From contig JAJTDQ010000017.1 of NCBI GenBank assembly GCA_021300505.1, forward strand, positions 1 through 32,861: DNA of 32,861 bases, written 5' to 3'. The position numbers and the translations under genes are program-made. Shown piece by piece: positions 4,671 through 18,443 of the stretch. This stretch comes from Cryomorphaceae bacterium. GTDB taxonomy: Bacteria > Bacteroidota > Bacteroidia > Flavobacteriales_D > Crocinitomicaceae. Under the pieces are notes generated by a model. That model did no database searches. It worked only from the letters and a program-made list of their open reading frames with translations, and was not told the DNA's origin. Position 1 is the first letter of the stretch, and each line of letters opens with the position of its first letter.

Positions 4671-5066
4671 TTATTTAGAACCATCAACAACTATGGTCAC
4701 GTGATTCGATCTTTTTCTAATTCTGTGTGCACGGCCTTGTGGAGCTGCTTGAATTCTCTTCAGCATGCTACCTCCGCCCACTTCAATAGACTTCACGATC
4801 AATTTCTCATCCTCGATGCTCTTACCTTCGTTTTTCTGTTCCCAGTTAGCGATGGCAGAACGCAACAATTTAGCGAGACTTGTTGACGCATTCTTAGCAT
4901 TATGTTGCAATATGTTCAGAGCCTTATTCACTTCTACTCCCCTTACAAGATCTGCAACTAATCTCATCTTTCTTGGAGCGATCGGAGAATCATTTAGACG
5001 TGCAAACGCAATCGTCTTATTCATCTCTTTGATCAAATCTGCTCTTTCTCTCTTTCTAGCACCCAT
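4671..5066 (-). CDS. rplV: 50S ribosomal protein L22 (uL22)
   Basis: This 131-residue protein extends a beta-hairpin into the exit tunnel. The core has '[21 protein letters not shown]' and the conserved C-terminal '[20 protein letters not shown]'. The N-terminal ~18 residues ([18 protein letters not shown]) are a basic extension before the fold. The hairpin is intact, with no sign of macrolide-type deletions in the '[17 protein letters not shown]' part. It is 16 nt downstream of rpsS. Confidence 0.97.
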
Positions 5067-8087: not shown

Positions 8088-10193
8088 TTATGCTGTTACT
8101 TTACCGCTTGCTTTCGCTACTACATCATCTGCTACGTTCTTTGGAGCCTCTGCATAGTGAGAGAATTCCATTGAAGAACTTGCACGACCTGAAGACAACG
8201 TACGAAGTTGTGTTACATATCCGAACATTTCCGAAAGTGGAACATCGGCTTTAACTACCTTAGAACCTGCACGGTCATCCATTCCACGAATCACACCACG
8301 ACGACGGTTCAAGTCACCTACGATATCACCCATGTTTTCTTCTGGAGTAACCACTTCCATCTTCATGATTGGCTCAAGAAGGATTGGACGTGCATTTTTC
8401 AATGCTGCACGGTATGCCATTTTCGCACACAATTCGAAAGACAATGAATCTGAATCGACTGCGTGGAATGAACCATCCAACAATTCAACTTTCATTGCTT
8501 CAATTTGGAAGCCAGCCAAGACACCATTTTTCATTGATTCCTTGAATCCTTTCTCTACTGAAGGGATAAATTCACGAGGAATGTTACCACCTTTCACAGA
8601 GTTCACGAACTCAAGACCTTTTTTCGCTTCATCCTCTTGCGGAGAAATTTTAACAACGATATCGGCAAATTTACCACGACCACCCGATTGTTTTTTGTAC
8701 ACTTCACGGTGATCAATTGTTGCTGTAATGTTCTCACGGTAAGATACCTGTGGAGCTCCTTGGTTTACTTCAACCTTGAACTCACGCTTCAAACGGTCAA
8801 CGATAATCTCCAAGTGAAGCTCACCCATTCCAGAGATAATTGTTTGTCCAGTTTCTTCGTCAGTATTCACACGGAATGTTGGATCTTCTTCAGCAAGTTT
8901 GTTCAACCCAATACCCAATTTATCTTGATCCGCTTGAGTTTTAGGCTCAATTGCGATACCGATAACCGGCTCAGGAAAGTTCATCGACTCAAGAACGATT
9001 GGTGCATTTTCAGCACACAATGTATCTCCTGTACGAATATCTTTAAATCCAACCAACGCACCGATATCTCCAGCACCAAGCTCATCAATTTGATTTTGCT
9101 TATTCGCGTGCATTTGGAAGATACGAGAGATACGCTCTTTGTTGTTTGTACGTGTGTTCAAAACATAAGAACCTGCAGGCAATTTACCTGAGTACGCACG
9201 TGTAAAGCACAAACGACCTACGAAAGGATCTGTTGCAATTTTAAATGCCAAACCTGCAAACGGCTCATCATAAGATGGCTGACGCGTGATAGGCTCATCT
9301 GTCTTAGGATTGATTCCTGTGATTGCCTCGATATCCAATGGTGAAGGAAGAATCTCCATTACCATGTCCAACATTGCTTGTACCCCTTTGTTTTTGAAAG
9401 AAGAACCACACATCATTGGGACTACTTTACCAGAAATAGTCGCTTGACGCAATGCATCAAGAATTTCTCTTTCTGTCAATGAGTTCTCATCTTCGAAGAA
9501 TTTCTCCATCAAGCTCTCATCGAATTCAGCAACCGCCTCCAACAATTCGCTGCGCAACTTACGTGCGTCGTCGATAATGTCAGCAGGGATTTCAACTTCT
9601 TTAAACGTCATTCCTTGGTCAGCGTCGTTCCAAACGATACCTCTCCAATTGATCAAGTCAACAACACCTTTGAAATTATCTTCTTCACCGATGTTGATTT
9701 GAAGTGGCAATGCATGACTACCCAACATTTCTTTCACTTGCTTACAAACATTCAAGAAGTCAGCACCCTGACGGTCCATTTTGTTTACAAACCCGATACG
9801 TGGAACATTGTAGTTATTCGCCAAACGCCAGTTTGTTTCAGATTGTGGTTCAACACCATCAACCGCAGAGAACAAGAATACCAATCCATCCAATACACGC
9901 AATGAACGATTCACCTCAACGGTGAAGTCAACGTGTCCTGGGGTATCGATAATGTTGATGTGGTATTTTGTACCACGGTAGTTCCAGCTCACTGTAGTCG
10001 CCGCTGAAGTAATGGTAATACCACGCTCCTGCTCTTGCTCCATCCAGTCCATTGTTGCACCACCCTCGTGTACCTCACCAATTTTGTGGTTTACACCCGA
10101 GTAATACAAAATACGCTCAGTGGTAGTCGTTTTACCTGCATCAATGTGAGCAGCGATACCAATGTTACGTGTGTATTTAAGATCTCTTGACAT
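8088..10193 (-). CDS. fusA: Elongation factor G
   Basis: This 701-residue translocation GTPase moves tRNA and mRNA through the ribosome. The G domain has G1 '[13 protein letters not shown]' (about residues 15-27), switch II/G3 'DTPGHVDFT' and G4 'NKMD'. It is followed by domain II, the 'GMGELHLEI' segment of domain III, and domains IV-V with 'GRGKFADI' and '[11 protein letters not shown]'. Length and motifs are canonical and complete. It lies between rpsG (5 nt) and rpsJ (14 nt). The motifs fit the housekeeping enzyme rather than a ribosome-protection paralogue. Confidence 0.98.
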
Positions 10194-11293: not shown

Positions 11294-12098
11294 TTAGTCC
11301 CTAATTATACGTTTACAGACAGTATTGCCTAGTTGGTCATGGACCTTTAATACATATGCTCCTCGATGAAGAGAGGACACATCGATTTTAGCATTGAAGT
11401 CATCACCGTTTTGTCTCAAAACAGAATTACCTAACGCATCCAAGACCTCAATTTCTTCAATTAAAAAATCAGCCTTAAGATACAGTAAATCCGACGTTGG
11501 ATTTGGGCCTATATATAAGGTGTGATTTTCTGCTTCATTTAATCCAACATGCGTCAACATGTATTCACATTCAACACCATTCGGATTTACCACAAGACTA
11601 TCATCTTGAAAGCATCGAAAAGTAAAGATGTAATCTTCATAGATAATACTAGGATCGCAAGAGCGCAACAATGGCAGGAAATAATCCCCTCCAAAACGAT
11701 TGTTAAAGGTGCCTGTTAATTTAAGATTTGCATTGAGATACGATTCCACAGTTATAGAGGGATAACCATAATCATCATTACCTGTCCCAGTGAGCATTGT
11801 CCATGATTCCGCACTGCATTGATCCGCAGGACTTGGATTCGTTACACCAATCATATAAGAATCACCCGTACTTTTTGAAAAATCAAAGAGTTTTTGAAAG
11901 GAACTGTCTTGAAGATAAAAAACGGTGGTTCTTTCCTTGAATGACTGTATCTCCACTCTGCTCAATTTTCATAAATCCAAACCATCCAATTGTCCAATAA
12001 TCATAATGCCAAACCGCATTTGGTTTTACCCAGATGGAATTCTGTGCAATCAAAGGCATTGGAATTAAAATGATGAGGAAGAATAAAATGCGAATCAT
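11294..12098 (-). pseudogene. Frameshifted T9SS-sorted secreted protein
   Basis: Two overlapping minus-strand ORFs look like halves of one gene. ORF 12098-11883 encodes a signal peptide (MIRILFFLIILIPMPLIAQ) and the start of the mature protein, up to 'QSGDTVIQGK'. ORF 11965-11294, in another frame, continues with 'TVFYLQDSSFQKLFDF' and 'GDSYMIGVTNPS'. It ends in a T9SS type-A sorting domain: 'GPNPTSDLLYLKADF', 'IEVLDALGNSVL', 'IDVSSLHRGAYVLKV', 'KRIIRD'. The frame switch must lie between 11883 and 11965, best near 11915-11940. Neither half alone would be both exported and sorted. Related proteins as I recall them carry more sequence between the two motifs, so a small deletion is also possible. 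Real mutation and assembly error cannot be separated here. The function of the mature part is unknown. Confidence 0.7.
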
Positions 12099-17167: not shown

Positions 17168-17929
17168 ATGGGTGCCGTCATTTCGGAGGATCGAATTTTT
17201 TCATTGAACTCCAATGATGACTTCAACCGTTTAGCGTTGGATATGTACGACTATCAAAAAACGCATTGCGGCATCTACAGTGAATTCATTCATTTACTCG
17301 GTAGGCCCGAACCAAAAGAGTATTCAGAGATTCCCTTTCTACCCATCTCTTTTTTTAAAGAACATGATATCATCGCAGAAGGTCATCGACCAGAAGTGCA
17401 ATTTCTGAGTAGTGGAACAACTGGAATGCAGCGTTCGAAGCATCTTGTCGCGAGTAAGGGACTTTACGAACGTTCGTTCATGACAGCCTATAGAAAACGG
17501 ATTGGAAATCCTGAAGACCAGGTCATCTTGGCCTTGTTACCGAGCTATATTGCGCAAGGGGAATCGAGTTTGGTTTATATGGTAAATCATCTCATCAAGG
17601 AGTCAAATTCGTATAAATCGGGATTCTTGTTAGAGTCTATTGATGAAATAGAACATCGCTATACAATGGCTTGTAACGAAGGAAAAAAAACCATCTTGTT
17701 TGGTGTGAGCTATGCCCTACTCGATCTCGCTGAAAAAGGTATTGATTTATCTAAAGCTGTCATCATCGAGACAGGTGGAATGAAGGGTAGAAGAAAAGAG
17801 ATGACCAAAGAAGAATTGCACAATACCCTAAAGAAAGCGCTCAAGGTTGAAACCGTTCTTTCGGAATATGGCATGACAGAATTGTTATCTCAAGCCTACT
17901 GTGATGTTTTATCTCAACACAGGATTTAG
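17168..17929 (+). CDS. LuxE-like acyl-protein synthetase/acyltransferase, truncated by internal loss and frame change
   Basis: This 253-residue member of the LuxE/adenylate-forming family is expected to activate an acyl group with ATP or hold it as a thioester. Visible motifs are 'IPFLPISFFKEHDI', the ATP-binding-like 'LSSGTTGMQRSKH', 'ILALLPSYIAQGESSLVYMV', 'IIETGGMKGRRKEMTKEELH' and 'LSEYGMTELLSQAY'. After the last motif the reading frame fails (CDVLSQHRI then stop). Family members run about 320 residues and continue with a segment ending 'GRFD.SDIRGCNL'. That end is present downstream in another frame (see 17905-18012). The N-terminal two thirds are intact, but the product is probably non-functional. 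Confidence 0.75.
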   Translation: MGAVISEDRIFSLNSNDDFNRLALDMYDYQKTHCGIYSEFIHLLGRPEPKEYSEIPFLPISFFKEHDIIAEGHRPEVQFLSSGTTGMQRSKHLVASKGLYERSFMTAYRKRIGNPEDQVILALLPSYIAQGESSLVYMVNHLIKESNSYKSGFLLESIDEIEHRYTMACNEGKKTILFGVSYALLDLAEKGIDLSKAVIIETGGMKGRRKEMTKEELHNTLKKALKVETVLSEYGMTELLSQAYCDVLSQHRI

Positions 17930-18012
17930 GCAGATCGAATGGAGAACAATTTCAAATATTGGGTCGCTTTGATCAGTCAGACATTCGAGGGTGTAATCTA
18001 CTCATTGAGTAA
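17905..18012 (+). pseudogene. Out-of-frame 3' remnant of the LuxE-like gene
   Basis: In a frame different from the 17168 ORF, this stretch reads 'CFISTQDLGRSNGEQF', 'QILGRFDQSDIRGCN' and 'LLIE' before TAA at 18010. It matches the C-terminal end of LuxE-like proteins in Bacteroidota. The roughly 45-55 residues normally lying between 'SEYGMTELLSQAY' and this block are missing, so the lesion is a deletion that also shifts the frame, not a single-base slip. The family length comparison is from memory. Confidence 0.72.
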
Positions 18013-18050: not shown

Positions 18051-18443
18051 ATGACAGGTACCAGCATCGCACTATTGATCATGATTGGCCTTATGGCTGG
18101 TGTGCTTAGTGGTTTTGTTGGTATTGGTGGGGGTGTTCTCATCGTTCCCGCACTTGTCTTTTTCTTAGGATTCACTCAACATCAAGCTCAAGGTACGAGC
18201 TTGTTTGTTTTGGCGATGCCCGTTGTTGCCTTAGGCGTTTACAATTATTGGAAAACAGGCAATGTACAGTGGCAACATGGCTTAATCATCGCGGGAAGTT
18301 TTCTCATCGGCGGATATATCGGATCGAAACTCTCACTTAAAACGTCACCTGGAATGGTGAAACTCATCTTTGGCGCCTTGATGGCTTATGTTTCTGTGCG
18401 CCTCATTATTTCTGGTGTAAACTCAATAGGTCATGAATCCTGA
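18051..18443 (+). CDS. Half-size TauE/SafE-family membrane protein
   Basis: This 130-residue inner-membrane protein has about four hydrophobic segments. It carries the family N-terminal signature 'GLMAGVLSGFVGIGGGVLIV' followed by 'PALVFFLGFTQHQAQGTSL'. Full-length TauE/SafE exporters (about 250 residues) contain two such halves; this one has a single half. The family is linked to export of sulfite, sulfoacetate or other organic anions, but no substrate can be assigned here. The track start at 18042 is TTG; the ATG at 18051 (MTGTSIALLIM) is preferred. The end overlaps the next gene by 11 nt. Confidence 0.82.
   Translation: MTGTSIALLIMIGLMAGVLSGFVGIGGGVLIVPALVFFLGFTQHQAQGTSLFVLAMPVVALGVYNYWKTGNVQWQHGLIIAGSFLIGGYIGSKLSLKTSPGMVKLIFGALMAYVSVRLIISGVNSIGHES

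Follow-up and report, generated by a model that had tools for sequence, protein, structure and literature searches.

The loss of 133 bp from a LuxE-like gene in the DNA analysed here is very probably an assembly error in an ordinary, intact chromosomal LuxE/PaaK-like gene, most likely produced where contig ends were joined over gaps. The window, that is, the whole stretch of 32,861 nucleotides that was analysed, is contig C150 of the draft genome G000 (2,408,460 bases, 174 contigs, 85% complete). An earlier note on this DNA had left the choice between a recently dead gene and a segment lost by the assembly. The latter is favoured because frame-shifting losses occur in excess throughout the genome and affect even mraY, an essential single-copy gene. 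Most likely, then, the 133-bp loss involves no novel biology, and the lesion in the LuxE-like gene is not a real feature.

In the published sequence, the gene appears as an open reading frame of 253 amino acids (positions 17168–17929, plus strand), whose last residues are SEYGMTELLSQAYCDVLSQHRI followed by a stop codon. Immediately 3′ of the end of this frame, the frame starting at 17872 gives ISTQDLGRSNGEQFQILGRFDQSDIRGCNLLIE and a stop codon, and the C-terminal residues of the LuxE-like gene are encoded at 17908–18009 in this shifted frame. Both translation and comparison with the closest relatives (L002–L005) thus bear out the description in the earlier note of a frame that ends early, with the family's C-terminus in another frame. 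The features of the locus are the following:

17168..17905, plus strand: intact 5′ part of the LuxE-like gene, codons 1–246 (74–82% amino acid identity to L002–L005 over 246–247 residues)
17905..17906, plus strand: junction, site of the 133-bp loss (breakpoint optimisation against four relatives, D=133 for each)
17906..17929, plus strand: out-of-frame tail VLSQHRI and stop codon, a product of the junction (translation; relatives have no counterpart)
17908..18012, plus strand: conserved 3′ part of the LuxE-like gene in the other frame, last 34 codons and stop codon (translation; dN/dS against L002)
17885..17893, plus strand: first copy of the direct repeat, TTATCTCAA, in conserved codons (LSQ), not a breakpoint
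17909..17917, plus strand: second copy of the direct repeat, TTATCTCAA, in conserved codons 3′ of the junction, not a breakpoint

In the four closest relatives, the gene is intact, has 325 codons and is followed by a TauE-like gene, as in the window; two of them have long contigs, and there the neighbouring genes also stand in the order of the window. The comparison with genomes of close relatives that had been proposed as a check gives a common result, as 133 bp are absent after position 17905 at the nucleotide level against each of L002, L003, L004 and L005 (17905 or 17906 against L002). Since 133 bp correspond to 44 codons and one base, the frame of the C-terminus is changed. The earlier estimate of 45–55 missing codons was therefore close but slightly high, the true size being 44.3 codons. 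No N runs are present at the junction, and neither a second intact copy of the gene nor the lost segment was found on the other contigs of G000.

Slippage between the two copies of a 9-bp direct repeat had been suggested as the origin of the loss. The repeat is real, with TTATCTCAA at both sites listed above. Nevertheless, slippage would have cost one copy, yet both remain, and the breakpoint (17905/17906) falls between the two copies and outside either one, with only 0–1 base shared at the junction when the breakpoint is optimised against the four relatives. Slippage was consequently rejected as the cause.

The LuxE-like gene is not the only broken gene in this assembly. It is true that, as the earlier note stated, the adjacent genes are intact; nevertheless, a gene farther away on the same contig, which that note had missed, is broken in a similar manner. 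It emerged when all genes of the window were compared with the genomes G008 and G024, in which its orthologues are intact, with 304 amino acids and a Por secretion sorting domain. Outside the window, mraY is present in G000 as a single copy that is split over two frames, covering residues 1–88 and 131–401, with an internal segment missing. The final residues of mraY are absent as well, together with the beginning of murD, so that the two genes are fused in one frame. The identity of the gene is clear from the copy in G024, which scores 338 bits against the NCBIfam mraY model. MraY is indispensable for peptidoglycan synthesis, and a walled bacterium cannot live without it. A further affected gene is clpX, where a single base pair has been lost outside any homopolymer. 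The larger lesions are located as follows:

11297..12098, minus strand: second broken gene of the window, encoding a 304-amino-acid protein that carries a secretion sorting domain; 110 bp lost near 11928, frame changed (comparison with G008 and G024)
G000:C21:16110-17290 (locus L166): broken mraY, its 3′ end lost together with the first part of murD

A census of such lesions covered 61 stretches of G000, 747 kb in all, which were compared in all directions with stretches from three sister genomes, G004, G008 and G024. In G000, there are 13 frame-shifting deletions of 1–205 bp in 161 kb of compared coding DNA, whereas the three sister genomes together have a single one in 481 kb. The rate is thus about 39 times higher in G000; at equal rates, the binomial probability of finding at least 13 of the 14 deletions in this genome is about 2e-7. 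By contrast, frame-shifting insertions in G000 number 0, and in-frame stops number 3, versus 16 in the other three genomes together. Where G000 was the query, frame-shifting insertions were listed in the sister genomes, and most of these mirror the losses in G000. Conservation is good on the two sides of each junction, and 0–2 bases are shared at the resolved junctions, among which that of L166 is not included. Extrapolated from 0.8 per 10 kb, the whole assembly perhaps contains about 100 to 200 small losses. Lesions similar to that of the LuxE-like gene are therefore in clear excess in G000, as expected of an assembly artefact, with mraY and clpX among the genes affected.

The likeliest route to these losses starts from short coverage gaps, i.e., stretches without reads within genes of G000. 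We infer that contig ends were joined across such gaps with too few Ns inserted, or none, and the joined ends would then leave a published sequence that lacks tens to about 200 bases and has changed frame. In 747 kb of G000, there are seven N runs of 4–81 bp (loci L126, L132, L135, L146, L167, L170 and L185), from which the assembly was evidently scaffolded across small gaps; the only N runs of the sister genomes are ones spanning whole or nearly whole contigs. The N runs of G000 had no usable counterpart in the relatives with which they were compared. Points against the proposed route are that the junction of the LuxE-like gene has no Ns and that short-read assemblers seldom join ends that have no overlap.

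Assembly errors have been reported to underlie many apparent pseudogenes in bacteria (PMC11017572). The excess in G000, relative to near relatives, of genes that are broken in frame and otherwise conserved resembles these spurious pseudogenes, with the difference that the emphasis of the paper is on frameshifts and internal stops of any kind, while most of the errors in G000 remove tens to about 200 bases. In practice, gene losses or single-gene "pseudogenes" in G000 and similar drafts need to be checked against sister genomes or reads, and counting the frame-broken conserved genes against near relatives quickly exposes assemblies of this kind.

An alternative is that a real and very recent deletion of 133 bp inactivated the LuxE-like gene in one strain, leaving a young pseudogene. 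The loss is clean, and it is unique to the window species among the 25 genomes of the genus that were searched, the rest being either complete or interrupted by the end of a contig. For instance, two apparent cases of parallel truncation proved to be such cuts: the match in G018 ends at base 8636 of an 8637-base contig, and the N-terminal piece in G019 stops at 4869 in a contig of 4874 bases. A young deletion would likewise show undecayed flanks, and these are indeed what is found. Against L002, the 5′ part has a dN of 0.103 and a dS of 1.53, the 34 codons of the 3′ part have a dN of 0.039 and a dS of 1.38, and dN/dS for the gene is about 0.07; lineage-specific replacements in the 5′ part number 9 in the window and 10 in L002. 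No relaxation of selection is thus apparent in the remaining sequence, although a very recent event would escape such a test. With undecayed sequence flanking the junction, two explanations remain, namely a deletion of very recent date and an error. Between these, a young deletion is unlikely, since similar losses are so much commoner in G000 than in its sisters and strike even mraY. Only one of the broken genes need carry a real deletion, yet the LuxE-like gene is not singled out by anything. Moreover, of 60 relatives across the order, 56 keep the gene, nearly always as one good match, and most of the four absences correspond to incomplete genomes. It is accordingly doubtful that the strain truly lost a near-universal gene of its order by a very recent deletion; if it did, the enzyme would be dispensable in the strain's habitat.

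Two other explanations are weaker still. Genome-wide gene decay in the lineage, as in bacteria that have recently become host-bound, could account for many broken genes in a genome of 2.4 Mb. Nevertheless, decay should also add nonsense mutations, insertions and an elevated dN, and the pattern in G000 is unlike it because frame-shifting insertions are absent and in-frame stops are few. The low dN/dS and the equal numbers of replacements in the LuxE-like gene also speak against decay, and a loss of mraY function is incompatible with a walled cell, which makes this explanation very improbable. Finally, the protein of 253 amino acids might be a functional short form, given that its reading frame is open and its N-terminal part conserved, or the 3′ part might be a separate gene or be reached by a translational frame change. 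None of these versions is at all credible. All 28 relatives with full sequence run on to the common C-terminus, contrary to the case considered in the earlier note of homologues that end naturally at this point and have a separate C-terminal frame, and the short form lacks 12 invariant positions. The 3′ part has no in-frame start codon of its own, and a frameshift cannot restore 44 missing codons. The reading of the lesion as an error of assembly thus stays the preferred one.

As for the gene itself, its related loci come from draft genomes of Flavobacteriales, Crocinitomicaceae and Fluviicola, many of them evidently environmental. The assignment to a LuxE-like family holds, as the intact orthologue L002 matches the Pfam family PF04443 (LuxE, an acyl-protein synthetase family with uncharacterised members in Flavobacteriales) over its whole length, with 50.3 bits against a cutoff of 24.9. 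The copy in the window has no Pfam match at the cutoff, because of the missing segment. Nevertheless, the window has all of the conserved C-terminal blocks (DLG, GRfD..d.RGCN), of which the last ones are in the shifted frame, and they are collinear with the full-length orthologues. The missing 44 residues hold the 12 positions that are invariant in 28 intact relatives (WM, NDP, TGG.N.iD.AN..SC.FI), and the protein without them would hardly be active. With regard to LuxE proper, the long-chain-fatty-acid--protein ligase (NF052244), L002 reaches only 30.9 bits against a curated cutoff of 550, and other lux genes were not seen beside the LuxE-like gene in the window. A match to PF04443 at a score far below the cutoff of the LuxE model points to a product that, judged by its sequence, is a LuxE/PaaK-like adenylate-forming enzyme and not a true LuxE. 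A search by sequence found no solved structure for the truncated protein.

Downstream, at 18051–18443, lies a frame for a TauE/SafE-like protein of about 130 amino acids, roughly half as long as the Pfam model. In the window species and its four closest relatives, it separates the LuxE-like gene from a gene for an M20 peptidase; in L006 and L007, this peptidase gene comes directly after the LuxE-like gene.
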